DNA of 64,000 bases from Brachyspira aalborgi (GTDB lineage Bacteria; Spirochaetota; Brachyspiria; Brachyspirales; Brachyspiraceae): the NCBI RefSeq assembly GCF_008016455.1, contig NZ_SAXU01000001.1, positions 1-64,000 of the forward strand, read 5' to 3'. The notes below the pieces were generated by a model. It worked only from the letters and a program-made list of their open reading frames with translations. It searched no databases and had not been told where the DNA came from. Of this stretch, positions 3,801 through 57,325 are shown one piece after another (the stretch's first letter is position 1; every line of letters starts with the position of its first letter). Position numbers and translations under genes: made by a program.

Positions 3801-5111
<1,311 letters not shown>

Positions 5112-16931: not shown

Positions 16932-17306
16932 ATGGCAAAAGTGACAACTGAAGAAGAGCTTACAAATGCTATAAAAAATAATGAAGATACTATAGAAATA
17001 GAAGGCGACCTTTCTAAAAAAGCAATTAGAATTAAAGCCACAGGAAAAGTTGCATGGGTTGTAGCTATAGCGTCAACTATCGTAGCCGTAATAGGTATTT
17101 TACTTATTACAACTTCTGGCGGCAAAAATTTAATAGCATTAGGCTCTGGAACTGGAGCGGTATCTACTCTTGGAAGCAATACGACTATAGGCGCAATTAT
17201 TATAATCATAGCTATAGCAGGCGCTGGAATTGGAATTCTTAATAAATTGCGTAAATACAGAATAGAAAAAGTTTCAGAAAAACACATTATTTTGCATAAA
17301 AAATAA
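16932..17306 (+). CDS. Small membrane protein of unknown function
   Basis: 124 residues. The cytosolic N-terminal 40 residues are charged (EEELTNAIKNNEDTIEIEGD). Two hydrophobic segments follow, at about 40-62 and 85-105, and are separated by a Gly/Ser/Thr-rich stretch (TTSGGKNLIALGSGTGAVS). The C-terminus is basic. Good codon structure and an AAGGA site support a real gene. An opposite-strand open frame covers the same bases but lacks a ribosome site. I do not recognise the family. It stands alone between the CapA gene and the convergent GT2 gene. Confidence 0.65.
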   Translation: MAKVTTEEELTNAIKNNEDTIEIEGDLSKKAIRIKATGKVAWVVAIASTIVAVIGILLITTSGGKNLIALGSGTGAVSTLGSNTTIGAIIIIIAIAGAGIGILNKLRKYRIEKVSEKHIILHKK

Positions 17307-17461
17307 TTTATTTATAACTTTAATATTGAAAGATTACAATAAATTATTTGATAATCCTCAATATATTTTATCAAAATACTAAAAAATCAAAAGACAACTA
17401 TTAATCTATAACTTTATCGCTGAAACTCTTAACAATTCTCAAATAGCAACTCTCGTCTATA

Positions 17462-18367
17462 TCACTTAATCGAATTATATTTAAATCTTCTATTCTCGCT
17501 TAAAACTTTGCTTATAGCCTTCATTAAAAGCCCGATTGAAAAAGACAAAGCGGATAATATTATCAAACATATAGTTAATATCGCTGTCGGAAATCGCTCA
17601 ACTTTTAAAGTTTCAAAATATTCTATCGTTATTCCTATTCCTAAAAATAATCCAATCCCTAAAAATATTAAACTTATCGTATTAAAAAATAATAAAGGTT
17701 TTTCGGTAATTAATAAATAAATTATAGTGAAAAGTATTATAAATCCGTCCTTAAAAGTATTTAATTTTGAATGCGAACCTTCTGGACGCTTTATATATTT
17801 CGCTGAAACTTCGTCTATAGGCAAACGCATTTGCAAAGCGTATATTGTAAGCTCCGTTTCTATTTCAAAGCCTCTCGAATTTGCGGGAAAACTTTTAACA
17901 AATCTTTTTGAAAATATTCTATAACCGCTTAACATATCGTTAAATTTCTTTCCGAAAAGAAAATTAGCAAATCCCGTAAGCATCATATTTCCAAAAGAAT
18001 GTCCTTTTCTGTGAACGGTTTCATCGACAACTTCTCGAGATATATTAAGCATATCTAATTTATTTTCCGTAAAGTAATTAATAAAATTATTTATTTCGCT
18101 TAAATCGTATTGCATATCTGCATCAACCATAATATAAATATCTGAATCAATATCAGCGAACGCTCTTCTAATAACCTCGCCTTTTCCTTGATAAGAAACT
18201 TTATTTACTATCGCTCCCGTTTCTTTTGCAATATTATAAGAATTGTCAGAACTGTTATTATCGAAAACATATATTTCGCATTTTGGACAATATTTTTGAA
18301 TATCGCAAATAACTTGTTTAATTGTAAGCTCTTCATTATAGCAAGGAATAATAGCGGCTATTTTCAT
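17462..18367 (-). CDS. Family 2 glycosyltransferase (DPM1/GtrB-like) with C-terminal membrane anchor
   Basis: 301 residues. The GT-A domain has AAIIPCYNEELTI at the start, QGKGEVIRRAF, and VDADMQYD carrying the DxD-type metal-binding motif (about residue 80). It is followed by SGYRIFSKRF, typical of polyprenyl-phosphate sugar synthases. Two hydrophobic segments at about 215-240 and 252-280 anchor it. Such enzymes load a sugar onto undecaprenyl phosphate for use by GT-C enzymes outside. It overlaps the preceding large membrane protein by ATGA, so the two are coupled and probably form a donor-synthase/transferase pair. Confidence 0.87.
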   Translation of the reverse strand: MKIAAIIPCYNEELTIKQVICDIQKYCPKCEIYVFDNNSSDNSYNIAKETGAIVNKVSYQGKGEVIRRAFADIDSDIYIMVDADMQYDLSEINNFINYFTENKLDMLNISREVVDETVHRKGHSFGNMMLTGFANFLFGKKFNDMLSGYRIFSKRFVKSFPANSRGFEIETELTIYALQMRLPIDEVSAKYIKRPEGSHSKLNTFKDGFIILFTIIYLLITEKPLLFFNTISLIFLGIGLFLGIGITIEYFETLKVERFPTAILTICLIILSALSFSIGLLMKAISKVLSENRRFKYNSIK

Positions 18368-20394
18368 TTTTTCTCTCCTCGCAATTCTTTAATAAAAGTA
18401 AAAAACGATATTAGAGATATTATTGATATTGGATAAACGGGATAAATATATCTAATATCTACTACGGGAGTAAATGAAACTACAATAAATATTGTAGCAA
18501 TTGAAGAAAAAGAAACAGAGAACGAATAAATTAAAAGATTTGAATCAAATATTCTTTTTATAAAAATTAAAATAAAATTAATTATAAATATTATAAACGA
18601 TATAATAACGGGAAATATTATAGGAATATGAACCATCCTATTAAAAAGAAAATTATATATTTTTTCTCTTAATGGCGTGAAAGCAATTTTTTGCTCGTTG
18701 CTATTAAATCTATTGATTATAGATATATATGCGTTGTTAAATCCAATATCTAATCTTTGTATAGTATCGGAATTCATTAACCACCAACTTTTTTTATTTT
18801 TTATACAAAATTCTATAAAAAATCTATTAATATGTTTAATGTAGTTTATAGGATATTTAAAAATATATTTTATCCATACCTTTTTTAAATCGGACGATTT
18901 TATATTACTATTTTCAAATGGTTTATCTTTTGCCCAACCTGTAGAAAAATTATCAGCATTTAATGGATTGTCGTTATATGTTTTCTTTACATCTTCAAAA
19001 GTTTTACCATCTTCATACCATTCGTTTGGTATTAAAGAATCGTCATTCGCTGGAACAGAACAACCCGCTATTTGAAGTAAGAATAAATGGTTTGAGGCAT
19101 AATTACTATAAATTCCCCATATATGTGGGAATACTTTTACAATTCCGATTAAAATAATTGCCCATAACAACATTAGTATAACAAATGATTTTACATACTC
19201 TTTTATATTTTTTATTTGATTTGTTTTAAGGCATAAATAAGTAATTAAAATAAAAATAGGATAAATAGTAACGATAAAATTATGTCGCCATAAAAGCCCA
19301 AATAATAATATAATAGCGGTAAATATTTTCATGAATAATCTTATATATCTATTATTTATTGGTATTGATAATTGAAAAAATATTAAAGAATATAATAACC
19401 AAATAAACATTGAAGCTGTTGAATCTTTTACTTGAGAAAAATTTATAAAATATATATCTTTAATAAAAATTAATAAATAAATCAGAAGAACTTTTTTAGT
19501 TTTAAATCTATGATATAAAGAAATTATAATAAGAGCTAATCCTAAATAGAATAGAAATAAATTAATAAAAAATAAATAATAAGAATGAACTCCAAATATT
19601 TTATATAAAAAACGTAAAGTCAACGATATAATAACAGGATGCCAATTACTATAAGTATTTGCTATAGCTTTTACGATAATAGCATAGTTGTCCGAGAATT
19701 GAAAATATCCAGGAAATCCGAGCCAAAATTGAAATATAAATAATATTAATACAATAATACAATTTATAATAATAAATATTTTTTCATTTACGCTTAAAGG
19801 ATTAAAATATTCTTTTTTACCTATAATCTCTTTATAAAAATTTAAAAAATTTCCAAATGCATAATATATAAAAAATTTAATAATTAATATAAATATTAAT
19901 ATTACGCATATAATACTAATTAAATTATTTTTTACTTTCAAAATATAATTAATATTATCAATTTTTTCTTCACTAATCTCTTTTTTATCAGATATAAAAT
20001 TACCATAAGGACTTCCTTTATATTCCATTTCCGCATTTTCCATATAATCAGGCAAATTAGATAAATCAGGATAAACTCCATAAACATCACTATTTCTAAA
20101 AACTTTATCATAATAACGAATTCTAAAATGATGGACATAATTTGTAATATTTTCATTTGTAAGCAAATAATTTTTTATATTTTCTTCATCCAATTTTCCA
20201 TCAACGGTAAAATCTTCTATAATATTTTCTAAATCATATAAATTTAACATTCTTTCAATATTCAAATTAAAATCGGTTAAATAACCAACTCTATTTTTTG
20301 AGCCTAAAATTTGTAAAACTATTAAAGCGATAGAAATAATAATCACAAACGGAATATAAATTTTTAGAAATAAATTCTTATTTTTAGATATCAT
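18364..20394 (-). CDS. Large multi-pass membrane protein, probable GT-C-like glycosyltransferase
   Basis: 676 residues with about 11-13 hydrophobic segments. A periplasmic-type loop lies between the first and second segments (about 25-150), and another long loop near 430-540 contains GCSVPANDDSLIP and GWAKDKP. SNWHPVIISLTLR at around residue 240 and a following KD pair (FSQVKDSTASMF) recall DUF6020/GT-C membrane proteins, so a lipid-linked sugar transferase role is likely but not proven. AAGGAG is eight bases before the ATG. It is the first structural gene behind the repeat-containing leader ORF (20510-20623) and is coupled to the GT2 gene downstream. Confidence 0.65.
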   Translation of the reverse strand: MISKNKNLFLKIYIPFVIIISIALIVLQILGSKNRVGYLTDFNLNIERMLNLYDLENIIEDFTVDGKLDEENIKNYLLTNENITNYVHHFRIRYYDKVFRNSDVYGVYPDLSNLPDYMENAEMEYKGSPYGNFISDKKEISEEKIDNINYILKVKNNLISIICVILIFILIIKFFIYYAFGNFLNFYKEIIGKKEYFNPLSVNEKIFIIINCIIVLILFIFQFWLGFPGYFQFSDNYAIIVKAIANTYSNWHPVIISLTLRFLYKIFGVHSYYLFFINLFLFYLGLALIIISLYHRFKTKKVLLIYLLIFIKDIYFINFSQVKDSTASMFIWLLYSLIFFQLSIPINNRYIRLFMKIFTAIILLFGLLWRHNFIVTIYPIFILITYLCLKTNQIKNIKEYVKSFVILMLLWAIILIGIVKVFPHIWGIYSNYASNHLFLLQIAGCSVPANDDSLIPNEWYEDGKTFEDVKKTYNDNPLNADNFSTGWAKDKPFENSNIKSSDLKKVWIKYIFKYPINYIKHINRFFIEFCIKNKKSWWLMNSDTIQRLDIGFNNAYISIINRFNSNEQKIAFTPLREKIYNFLFNRMVHIPIIFPVIISFIIFIINFILIFIKRIFDSNLLIYSFSVSFSSIATIFIVVSFTPVVDIRYIYPVYPISIISLISFFTFIKELRGEKK

Positions 20395-20509
20395 AGAGTT
20401 ATCTCCTTAAAAGTTAATTTTTGTGAACGCAATAGAAAGCGTTTAAATGTTTCAAATAATTCTTTAGTTTTGCAATGAAAAAATCGCCGAAAAAATTTAT
20501 AATACGGCG

Positions 20510-20623
20510 TTAGTGTAGTGTAGTGTAGTGTAGTGTAGTGTAGTGTAGTGTAGTGTAGTGTAGTGTAGTGTAGTGTAGTGTAGTGTAGTGTAGTGTAGTG
20601 TAGTGTAGTGACAAACTAAACAT
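20510..20623 (-). CDS. Repeat-encoded leader ORF upstream of the membrane protein operon
   Basis: ATG at 20623 has TAGGA seven bases upstream and lies about 24 bases after the predicted transcription start. It reads MFSLS then LHYTT pentapeptide repeats through all 20 CACTA units, and stops (TAA) at the repeat edge: 37 residues. The next 120 bases are open in one frame (39 codons without a stop) and end in TGA overlapping the membrane protein ATG as ATGA. That frame joins the leader when the unit count is 19, 22 or 16. The leader could therefore switch translational coupling of the operon. Translation is inferred. Confidence 0.5.
   Translation of the reverse strand: MFSLSLHYTTLHYTTLHYTTLHYTTLHYTTLHYTTLH
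20511..20610 (+). repeat. Pentanucleotide tandem repeat TAGTG x20 (CACTA on the minus strand)
   Basis: Twenty perfect TAGTG units, 100 bp, between the promoter at 20654-20681 and the membrane protein gene starting at 20394. On the minus strand all frames through the repeat are open; on the plus strand TAG recurs. Confidence 0.97.
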
Positions 20624-20653
20624 ATAAAATTCCTACTAATTTTTAATGAATAA

Positions 20654-20681
20654 ATTATAACATATTAATAAAAAATGTCAA
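20654..20681 (-). promoter_or_regulatory. Strong sigma70-type promoter of the leader/membrane protein operon
   Basis: On the minus strand TTGACA (20681-20676), 16-base spacer, TATAAT (20659-20654): both hexamers perfect. It points through the CACTA repeat into the membrane protein and GT2 genes. The 346-base gap 20395-20740 holds this promoter, the leader ORF and the repeat, plus part of the downstream end of the ankyrin gene. Confidence 0.75.
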
Positions 20682-20740
20682 TAGAAAAATTAATTTATTT
20701 ATGATAAAAAATTAAAATTTTGCTTAAATTATTTTATTTA

Positions 20741-21082
20741 TTATTCCAACAATTTAATTATATTTCTATGATTTCTCTGTCTCGCATAAAATAAAGCGTT
20801 ATTTCCATGCTTATTTACTATCGATTTATCGGCATCCGAATTTAATAATAAAGCCACAACTTTTGTATGTCCTTCCATAGCCGCCAAAATTAAAGCGGTA
20901 TTTCCAACATCGTCTTGAATATTAATATCAATATTTTTTTCTAATATTTTTTCAACGATATCGTCATCTCCGAAAATTGAAGCGTCTAAAAGAGTTTCTT
21001 CGTCTTGATTTAACGCGTAAATTGAATTCGTCTTAAAAATAAATAAAGAAAGAATTATAAAAACATATAATAAAAACTTCAT
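20741..21082 (-). CDS. Secreted ankyrin-repeat protein
   Basis: 113 residues. A hydrophobic signal peptide (about 1-23, cleavage possible after IYALN) is followed by ankyrin repeats: DEETLLDASIFGDDDIV, then a textbook unit with GNTALILAAMEGHTKVV, then GNNALFYARQRNHRNII. That is about two and a half repeats, enough for a small protein-binding surface in the periplasm. Short secreted ankyrin proteins are frequent in spirochaetes; partners are unknown. The start has GGGAGAA just upstream. The tRNA terminator lies beyond its 5' end. Confidence 0.82.
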   Translation of the reverse strand: MKFLLYVFIILSLFIFKTNSIYALNQDEETLLDASIFGDDDIVEKILEKNIDINIQDDVGNTALILAAMEGHTKVVALLLNSDADKSIVNKHGNNALFYARQRNHRNIIKLLE

Positions 21083-21131
21083 GAATTTTCTCCCGTATAA
21101 TATTTAATTTATAATAAATATCGTAAAAAAT

Positions 21132-21176
21132 AAAACGATTCTTAAAATATTTTTTAATACTTTAGGAATCGTTTTT
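21132..21176 (-). terminator. Rho-independent terminator of the tRNA operon
   Basis: Reading the minus strand, AAAACGATTC and GAATCGTTTT form a 10-bp stem around a 24-base loop, followed by a T-rich run. It lies just after the tRNA-Ala gene. It could also act for plus-strand transcripts because both flanks are A/T runs. Confidence 0.6.
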
Positions 21177-21180
21177 AATT

Positions 21181-21254
21181 TGGAGGTTATGGGGATCGAA
21201 CCCACGACCTACTGCTTGCAAAACAGCCGCTCTCCCAAACTGAGCTAAACCCCC
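21181..21254 (-). tRNA. tRNA-Ala (TGC)
   Basis: The minus-strand sequence folds as a full cloverleaf: acceptor GGGGGTT with AACCTCC plus discriminator A, D arm GCTC/GAGC, and anticodon loop TTTGCAA with anticodon TGC. The T arm is GTGGG-TTCGATC-CCCAT. It is 74 nt and CCA is not encoded. It lies 21 bases after tRNA-Ile in the same transcript. Confidence 0.97.
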
Positions 21255-21275
21255 GAAGCTATAAAAGAATCTGTG

Positions 21276-21350
21276 TGGGTCTGGGAGGAATTGAACCACC
21301 GACCTTTCGATTATCAGTCGAACGCTCTAAACCATCTGAGCTACAGACCC
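21276..21350 (-). tRNA. tRNA-Ile (GAT)
   Basis: Cloverleaf on the minus strand: acceptor GGGTCTG/CAGACCC plus A, D arm GCTC/GAGC, anticodon stem TTCGA/TCGAA with loop CTGATAA (anticodon GAT), and T arm GGTGG-TTCAATT-CCTCC. It is 75 nt and CCA is not encoded. The Ile-Ala pair usually found in rRNA spacers stands here without rRNA genes in the window. Confidence 0.97.
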
Positions 21351-21375
21351 TTTTATTTAATTTTTTATAAGGTAT

Positions 21376-21404
21376 AATATAACATATTTTAAAAAAAATA
21401 GCAA
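21376..21404 (-). promoter_or_regulatory. Promoter of the tRNA-Ile/tRNA-Ala operon
   Basis: Minus strand TTGCTA (21404-21399), 17-base spacer of mostly T and A, TATATT (21381-21376), about 25 bases before the tRNA-Ile 5' end. Confidence 0.55.
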
Positions 21405-21457
21405 GCGTATTAAAAGTAAAAAATGCCTTAAAATAGGCTTAAAAAACAAGGAAAATA

Positions 21458-22006
21458 ATGTTTTATATAATTCCCGTATTTATACTTATGCCTTTAATAT
21501 TGATGGGTTTAATGATTTTTCTTCCGTTTATTATAGGAAAAAGAATTCCGCCGTCTTTTACAAAAGAAAAAACTAAAATTCTTAATATTTCTAAAGACGA
21601 ATTATACAAACTTTTAACGAATTATGAGAATTATCCTTTATGGATAAAATATTTATATCAAGTAAAAACTGAAAAAACGGACAGCGGAAAATTAAAAATA
21701 ATGCAAACTTATAAAAACAGAAAAGTCTATCAAGAATTAATTGAAGTTCGCCGAATAGAAAATAATAAAATATCCGAATTATCTATAGTAAAAGTGGAAG
21801 TCGAAGGAACTACTTTATGGACTTATATACTTGAAGATATAGGAGATAATAAAACTAAAATGACTATAAAAGAAACGATGTATATTTATCACCCATATTT
21901 AAGATTTATGTTAAAATATATACTTAAAGACGAAAACGCTAAAGGCGAATTTTTTAGAAATATAAAAAGATTTATTAAGAAAAATAATAAAAATAAGAGA
22001 GGATAA
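21458..22006 (+). CDS. Membrane-anchored SRPBCC-like protein
   Basis: 182 residues. One N-terminal hydrophobic helix (about 1-28) is followed by a soluble domain. Its pattern (ILNISKDELYKLLTNYENYPLWIKYL ... MTIKETMYI) resembles START/SRPBCC polyketide-cyclase-like folds, which bind hydrophobic ligands. The C-terminus is highly basic. AAGGAAAA precedes the ATG. The next gene starts four bases after the stop, so the pair is cotranscribed. Ligand and role are unknown; the fold call rests on residue pattern only. Confidence 0.6.
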   Translation: MFYIIPVFILMPLILMGLMIFLPFIIGKRIPPSFTKEKTKILNISKDELYKLLTNYENYPLWIKYLYQVKTEKTDSGKLKIMQTYKNRKVYQELIEVRRIENNKISELSIVKVEVEGTTLWTYILEDIGDNKTKMTIKETMYIYHPYLRFMLKYILKDENAKGEFFRNIKRFIKKNNKNKRG

Positions 22007-55995: not shown

Positions 55996-57090
55996 TTATA
56001 TATTTTCAAATTCGTTAAAAATAATTTTAAATTTATCTATATTCAAATAAAAATCGAAATCGTTATTTTTATTACGGTTATTATGATATTTAAAATTTGT
56101 TTCATCGCATTCTATATATTCGTAATATTTTCCGCCTAATTTTTCTAATATGGCTTTATAAGTATCTTCCAATCTATTATTAGGAACTATGCCAAGAACG
56201 GCTATGGTTTCTTTTGAACATACTAAATTAGTAAGTCCGCTTCCTAAAACGGATATTATTTTATCGGCATTGTAAAAAAGACAAAATTGTTCTTCTAAAG
56301 AATAATCTTCAGGATATATAATTTCGTATTCAAAAGGTTTTATCATTTTTATTAATTTATCTTCGTTTAATATTCTTCTCGTTTTTACATTTTTTCTGCT
56401 TAAATATATTTTTTTTAGGGAATTTATTTTTTTCGTATTTCTTCATTAATTCTTTTGTTAATTCTCGGTATTTATCGCAAATCCATTTTGAAGGATAATG
56501 AGTCGTTTCGCTTGGGAATGAAGATAAATATAAATTCTTGCATATAATCTCCGTTTGGTCTGAAATATATATTATCTTTTTATTTTCTAAATTGAATATT
56601 TTAAACTGTCTTTATGGAATTTAGTTTTGCATCCGTCTCCCAATATAAAGGCGTCTATTTTATCCAAAAATCCAGCGTCTTTTAAAATAAATAATTTAGG
56701 CAAAGTTTCATGTATCCAATGTCCAAAACAAACATTCCATATTGATTGCAAACTAAAAACATTTAAATCGGTTTTCTTTTTAAATCTAAAATTATAAAAT
56801 GCAAATCTTCCTCCAAGTTCTTCGGATAATCGCAATATTCTATCGTAAGGTAAAACTTCTTTTATTATTTTGTTGTCGCTTGTAAAATAAAATCCCCAAC
56901 TTGAATAAACTTTTGCATTATTTATTTTGCATAAAAACATTTCTAAATCTGAATTATCGTATTTTACGGGAATATATAATTCTTTATCTATATCTTTTAT
57001 TGAAACGGAATTAATTTTTAATTTATCTATAATTTTTAATCCAATTTTATGTCTTATTTTGCCGTTTAATAATTTATTACCGAAGCCCAT
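55996..57090 (-). pseudogene. Glycosyltransferase family 61 gene broken by two frameshifts
   Basis: The first frame (57090-56587) has GHWIHETLPKLFILKDAG, typical of GT61 (DUF563) proteins. It stops early near TTTT at 56599-56602; one more A on the coding strand would restore it. The middle continues in another frame to a run of eight T (56409-56416), where one base fewer restores the original frame. The last part reads VLGSGLTNLVCSKETIAVLG, the GT61 motif. The two shifts compensate, so 56416-56599 is the only wrong-frame part. The best start is ATG 57090 with GGAGG five bases upstream. The cause could be decay or sequencing error. Confidence 0.8.
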
Positions 57091-57325
57091 TTGAGCCTCC
57101 AAAAACGGCGGATATATTGCGATAATTTAGATTTATAAATATTGCTATAAATGCAAAATCAAAAAATCTTGCAATGCAAAAAAATATTTTTAAGTCATAA
57201 TAATATGTTGACGGTTGACGGTTGACGGTTGACGGTTGACGGTTGACGGTTGACGGTTGACGGTTGACGGTTGACGGTTGACGGTTGACAGTCACCAAAG
57301 TATTAAATAAGAATTTTAATATCAT
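57077..57325 (-). CDS. Possible repeat-encoded leader ORF overlapping the GT61 start
   Basis: An open frame from ATG 57325 reads through all 11.9 repeat units as a TVNRQPS pattern and stops at 57077, 14 bases inside the GT61 gene. It would couple translation at the present repeat number; in the frame entered by one unit fewer a TAA occurs about 50 bases before the GT61 ATG. The ATG lies almost at the predicted transcript start and has no ribosome site, so translation is doubtful. Confidence 0.3.
   Translation of the reverse strand: MILKFLFNTLVTVNRQPSTVNRQPSTVNRQPSTVNRQPSTYYYDLKIFFCIARFFDFAFIAIFINLNYRNISAVFGGSNGLR
57207..57289 (+). repeat. Heptanucleotide tandem repeat GTTGACG x11.9
   Basis: Eleven perfect GTTGACG units (57207-57283) plus six bases of a twelfth. 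It lies between the promoter (57335-57362) and the start (57090) of the GT61 gene, in its leader. Seven is not a multiple of three, so unit changes shift any leader frame. Confidence 0.97.

Follow-up and report, generated by a model that had tools for sequence, protein, structure and literature searches.

The window analysed here, the whole stretch of 64,000 bases in question, covers positions 1-64,000 of contig NZ_SAXU01000001.1 (assembly GCF_008016455.1) of Brachyspira aalborgi; the genome examined has 2,504,147 bases in 8 contigs. The locus lies on the minus strand and begins with a promoter (20654..20681), TTGACA-16-TATAAT, whose hexamers are at 20681-20676 and 20659-20654, separated by a 16-base spacer with a TG before the second hexamer. 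This is the sole 12/12 promoter match within 17200-21500 and it is kept in the cassette copies described below. Direct reading of the sequence then gives a ribosome site, AGTAGGA (20631..20637), and downstream of it the leader ATG at 20623. The leader frame enters (CACTA)20 (20511..20610), a perfect repeat of period 5, without stop codon in any frame on the minus strand. In its present form the leader ORF (20510..20623) has 37 codons and is in the OFF phase. The leader tail behind the array (20391..20510; TPYYKFFRRFFHCKTKELFETFKRFLLRSQKLTFKEITL) has 39 codons, is reached only when the unit number n is 1 mod 3, and ends with the TGA of an ATGA. It holds a terminator-like hairpin (20478..20509), CGCCG-15-CGGCG followed by A and TTTTTT, of -7.3 kcal/mol, which is a candidate attenuator.

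The gene starting in this ATGA (18364..20394, minus strand) encodes a 676-aa multi-spanning membrane protein of a Brachyspira gene family, without Pfam, NCBIfam or PDB match; the model of its fold had a pLDDT of 65 and likewise matched nothing in the PDB. It has its own ribosome site, AAGGAG (20403..20408), the GGAG of which pairs weakly with CUCU at 20398-20395, the site being unpaired at about 0.36. Its stop is overlapped, in a second ATGA, by the start of a GT2 glycosyltransferase gene (17462..18367, minus strand; Pfam PF00535, 7.3e-17), the product of which resembles polyprenyl/dolichyl-phosphate sugar transferases but stays below the curated cut-offs. Nearly all named relatives found in the searches were from Brachyspira. 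In the window protein and its paralogues L022-L027 about 190 N-terminal residues are conserved, and the membrane part has been exchanged between the paralogues; in L027 only 54 residues of the family remain, ahead of a sugar-nucleotide gene. A further family member, L149, is on a contig labelled as a Candidatus Gastranaerophilales MAG, by misbinning or transfer.

In its sequence the locus has features of an SSR-driven phase-variable locus: the perfect short repeat has a unit that is not a multiple of 3, it lies inside an open leader frame, and the outcome of reading depends on the unit number, here as well as in the sister copies. When n was set in simulation to 10, 13, 16, 19, 22 or 25, the leader ended with the TGA at 20393-20391, over the ATG at 20394. 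With the present n = 20 it stops at the TAA at 20512-20510 and with a simulated n = 21 four codons later (end 20497). The stop-start overlap expected of a translationally coupled pair is present in one phase of three, which is not the current one. An earlier note on this stretch, made from the sequence alone, had claimed a perfect promoter at 20654-20681 and a leader ATG at 20623 with a ribosome site and 20 CACTA units; both held, the former with a 12/12 match, the latter to the base. Its claims that 39 codons are open in one frame only, ending TGA over the membrane-protein ATG, and that 16, 19 or 22 units reach the ATGA, 20 stop at once and 21 stop after four codons, were confirmed as well. 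Since an open frame in the window tail is only mildly unlikely by chance (0.08 in dinucleotide shuffles), the window locus alone proves little, and it is the replicated pattern that carries weight. Among the ATGA-start genes of the window with intergenic DNA upstream, 1 of 18 shows such a frame, and this is the window locus. Overlapping matches to five CACTA units number 96 in the genome, while the reversed pattern has none.

The promoter-leader-(CACTA)n cassette is present in 12 copies in the genome, with n from 6 to 23. The copies were found by searching with both flanks of the array, the 3' and the 5' flank giving the same 12 places; the motif of the leader ribosome site plus ATGTTTAG also occurs 12 times. 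All have a TTGACA-like and a TATAAT-like promoter in common. Ten copies are complete, that is, readable into the next gene, and in eight of these (window, L022, L048, L049, L050, L052, L053 and L055) the leader ends in the ATGA of that gene; the exceptions are L021, with the leader end at -15, and L051, at -37. The targets encode 676-aa paralogues and PMT_2, SPASM radical SAM, pyruvyl transferase and methyltransferase proteins; in L055 the downstream ORF is very short and maybe degenerate. Several products of L050, L051, L052 and L053 have a stretch W-(I/V)-P-(I/V)-R-x-x-R in common, mostly C-terminal, a module found in otherwise unrelated enzymes.

Many genes begin with ATGA, so what is informative is that the frame running up to it has remained open. 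The leader tail running to the ATGA is kept in sister copies with diverged tails: among the diverged distal tails the frame is open in 6 of 7 groups, the seventh, L051, failing. Shuffling gave chances of 0.06 to 0.28 for each tail and a product of 5.6e-6 for the six open ones (L051 excluded). None of the ten complete CACTA copies is at present in the ON phase (p = 0.017 at one third per phase), for which culture selection, a cost of expression, or a wrong assignment of the ON phase are possible reasons. Taking all leaders, the start is currently reached by 2 of 17 in the B. aalborgi genome and by 12 of 24 in congeners. The small contigs C2-C8 were considered as evidence of population variation and were rejected as such: two of them end in the cassette (n = 6 and 23) with a 127-base end in common, and heterogeneity is not shown by this. 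The exact cassette core had no match in the genome contigs searched, from which the records of this or a very near genome may have been excluded. In 25 congeners neither the core, with up to 3 mismatches allowed, nor the 3' flank had a match, and the 5' flank had one with 3 mismatches. Thus the CACTA cassette itself was seen only in this genome, and it is the plan that is common.

The plan recurs with other leaders. A second cassette of B. aalborgi, with TACAA units and an MSGCKF leader, stands before L024, L025, L027 and L165, and the leaders of L023 (CACTT), L024 and L025 (TACAA) and L054 are different ones with the same type of end. Further arrays lie upstream of an MBOAT gene (L026), of an esterase (L054) and of L164, a 530-aa gene that is sugar-transporter-like by eye. 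The leaders of L054 and L164 are at present in a phase that reaches the start.

In the congeners the plan is present with AAAC, heptanucleotide, GCACC, ATCGC and other units. Among the congener members of the 676-aa family that we looked at, the majority carry an array of AAAC, AACA, CAAA or heptanucleotide units some 80-125 bases ahead of the gene; it starts directly behind a leader ATG, which is itself preceded by a promoter-like site. Of the three frames, one as a rule ends at +1, a second often at +5 or +8, and the third stops early. In 32 of 40 tails the ATGA-ending frame was open, compared with a few to about 10 per cent in shuffles; the tails are related within families, so these are not 40 independent tests. 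One such family gene, L109, has an intact leader frame, a strong start hairpin and an array that has nearly vanished, and is perhaps locked ON. At orthologous lipoprotein loci of four species (L029, L030, L032 and L033) the leaders carry CACTA units with n = 8, 18, 10 and 12; their frames are all short now, and an inverted repeat lies between array and gene.

No single piece of evidence speaks more strongly for array, frame and start being maintained together as a functional unit than the orthologous MBOAT (acyltransferase) locus of six species. The pentanucleotide arrays there are GCACC x13, AGCAC x11, GCACC x13, ATCGC x12, ACCGC x12 and CAATA x9. In two of the six species the 91-base tail is identical and the units differ by one base in all copies. 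The leader ends with a TGA at +16 in five species and at -2 (TAATG) in the sixth, and a start-codon hairpin is found in all six; two of the leaders reach the start now and four do not.

Start regions behind such arrays are unusually structured as a group. The fold of positions -25 to +45 had a mean of -10.6 kcal/mol in 43 SSR-led genes and -4.9 kcal/mol in 45 genes of the window (p = 2.7e-7, an optimistic value, since there are related genes among the 43). Compared with synonymous shuffles, SSR-led genes favour structure (mean z -1.09) and ordinary genes avoid it (+0.54), and the lowest 5% of the shuffles was attained by 16 of the 43 as opposed to 2 of 45 ordinary window genes. The predicted hiding of the ribosome site is strong in L048, L050, L052, L053 and many congeners; the start hairpin is GGAGTTT-TCAAAATGATT-AAACTCC in L052 and CGGAGGTTT-CATTATGATT-AAACTTCCG in L053, and in L093 the stem has 20 pairs. 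At 21 family loci of the congeners pairing in the same register was 0.72, compared with about 0.5 when the register was slid; double-sided covariation in this hairpin was not above that of slid registers at these loci. Start-codon hairpins are shown for many sister loci, as are the layout, the replication of the cassette and the conservation of the frame end. In case of the window gene, hiding is weak: its start region (z +0.87) is not unusually structured, and the only lock in it and its closest paralogues, GGAG-AUAA-CUCU, is no stronger than in ordinary genes.

Another structure lies directly after the array, where a hairpin plus U6 was found in 9 of the 10 complete CACTA copies (one with a 4-pair stem); the TACAA cassette has a corresponding hairpin, AGCCA/TGGCT, of other sequence in the same place. 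It is weakened in L021 and absent from two copies at contig ends, and none of the congener tails scanned had a terminator-like hairpin, despite the leader design in common. In view of L021 and the contig ends it was rejected as a fully conserved terminator, and it remains as a rival reading.

The explanation we consider likely (probability about 0.7) is a slippage-driven, frame-dependent leader switch acting through translational coupling, possibly helped by attenuation; the switching is unproven. It is the best supported reading because the layout recurs, with a unit number that varies, before many genes that are unrelated and mostly concern surface glycans, because other species have other units, and because orthologous loci keep the leader end and the start-codon hairpin despite changes of unit and number. 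According to this model, transcription would begin at the strong promoter and ribosomes at the leader ATG, while slipped-strand mispairing would change the length of the CACTA array and so fix the phase of the ribosomes that emerge from it. One phase of three would take them through 39 further codons to a stop in the ATGA that covers the membrane-protein start, where they would unfold the start region or reinitiate at the ATG, the GT2 gene following through the second ATGA. In either of the remaining phases they would terminate close to the end of the array, about 105-118 bases short, leaving the downstream start poorly used. The phase switch would lie outside the controlled gene, and the sequence of the target protein would never be altered. 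Slippage in cells, translation of the leader and loss of expression in the OFF phases are all inferred, and against this reading it must be said that no population or expression data support it. Also counting against it are the OFF state of all ten complete copies, the leaders of L021 and L051 that end short of an ATGA, the arrays outside the plan and the covariation result for the congener hairpin. Since the window start is not unusually structured and its AAGGAG is strong, expression in the OFF phases need not be low there; the terminator-like hairpin may possibly matter at this locus as a second candidate lock.

The earlier note had also proposed a slippage-driven translational switch, in a layout not known as described. 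The comparison supports the switch, its actual operation being still an inference, and the layout has a partial precedent in lex2A/lex2B of Haemophilus influenzae. The note's reading also needed correction: instead of standing alone, the locus belongs to a dispersed cassette and to a design found across the genus; an alternative long frame (+5, +8) arrives at the start as well in some loci; and the ribosome-site lock of the window gene is weak, the terminator-like hairpin offering an attenuation variant.

A serious alternative, or a partner of coupling at the window locus, would be leader-controlled attenuation, which remains possible. Here the phase would act on transcription and the ATGA coupling would be secondary: a ribosome in the OFF phase would leave near the array end, CGCCG/CGGCG with U6 would form and RNA polymerase would stop, while in the ON phase it would read through. 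The hairpin and U6 behind both the CACTA arrays and the TACAA cassette favour it, as does the lack of a strong start-site lock at the window gene. However, the stem is short and the loop long (about -6 to -7 kcal/mol), the failures in L021, at the contig ends and in the congener tails scanned count against it, and the conservation of the frame to the ATGA is left unexplained. It is very unlikely that the leader phase has little effect, the gene being translated from its own AAGGAG and the repeats, devoid of function, persisting by gene conversion and slippage. The strength of that ribosome site, the modest structure at the window start and the out-of-phase state of all ten complete copies speak for it, but in diverged tails, in many species and at orthologous loci whose units have changed, the frame to the start has been retained, and start hairpins are favoured at many sister loci. 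Ordinary in-gene phase variation, with leader and gene forming one protein in some phase, can draw on the L165 leader, which runs in frame into a longer ORF, and on some G019 genes with the array inside the N-terminus, but is all but excluded, since all three frames at the window locus stop at or before the ATGA; fusion of leader and gene was rejected there because no phase joins the membrane-protein frame.

For the leader switch acting through coupling, the nearest layout we found is lex2A/lex2B. The GCAA repeats of lex2A gave ON with 12 units and OFF with 10 and 11 in one assay, and lex2B, a separately named LPS glycosyltransferase gene, belongs with it (PMC6479036, PMC3116884). The two genes presumably adjoin and are coupled. 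The likeness, a repeat gene paired with a separate glycan gene, is one of layout only, and no homology is claimed; in the open-access literature searched, nothing on lex2 coupling was found beyond the SSR role of lex2A. Whereas lex2A/lex2B is a single locus, the Brachyspira leader is short and stands in 12 copies before unrelated genes, with turnover of the unit across species and with start-codon or terminator-like hairpins; portability and spread make this form unusual. The usual effect of SSR phase variation is to disrupt the gene itself or to shift a promoter. The in-gene SSR loci (lic1A, lic2A, lgtC, mod and others) are alike in having surface-glycan genes, a single ON phase out of three and an array whose unit length is not divisible by 3, but in Brachyspira the array is in a separate leader and the target protein sequence is unchanged. 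With known translational coupling (PMC12548453) it has in common the stop-start overlap and upstream translation that opens structure at the downstream ribosome site; the difference is that the upstream ORF is a hypermutable frame selector. In attenuators of the trp type a leader-peptide ORF is followed by a hairpin and a U tract; in Brachyspira the outcome would follow a heritable repeat number and not the supply of amino acids, attenuation being untested. In the text of the 2025 coupling review (PMC12548453) neither repeats nor slippage nor phase variation are mentioned, a search for coupling, leaders or Brachyspira in a 2025 phase-variation review had no match, and no paper on Brachyspira phase variation by repeats was found in the literature searched, which is weak evidence, as only open-access texts were covered. 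Thus the parts, repeat frame switching and translational coupling, are known, and the portable combined form was not found described in the open-access literature.

In this human gut spirochaete, then, the repeat length of a leader probably decides, as far as can be inferred, whether ribosomes reach and start the next surface-sugar gene; near-copies of the leader layout stand before many other genes of the genome and of its relatives. Breaking the frame in a leader that is itself dispensable, with the effect transmitted by coupling, would let a single cassette govern any gene, and no controlled protein would have to accommodate a repeat. Brachyspira would then possess numerous contingency loci for surface sugars, and the natural series of frames, stops and hairpins could be used to test reinitiation against RNA unfolding, an open question of the field (PMC12548453). 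A bolder reading, for which we see as much against as in favour, is that promoter, leader ATG, hypermutable repeat, coupling tail and hairpin lock make up a portable frame-selector cassette, dispersed in many copies, that would render any joined gene phase-variable with its protein unchanged and would be a main means of varying surface glycans across Brachyspira, perhaps by coupling and attenuation together.

Some arrays do not fit the plan, namely those at L166, L103 and window position 4974, and the AGACC arrays. The window array (4974-5067, plus strand) consists of GCAGA x18.8 at the 3' end of a coding frame, where it would alter the C-terminus and not a leader; the next gene is 194 bases on. 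Another array of the window, GTTGACG x11.9 (57207-57289), lies upstream of a 167-aa ORF that starts at 57090 on the minus strand. One of its frames passes the ATG at 57090 and stops at +11, and this may be a heptanucleotide version of the plan.
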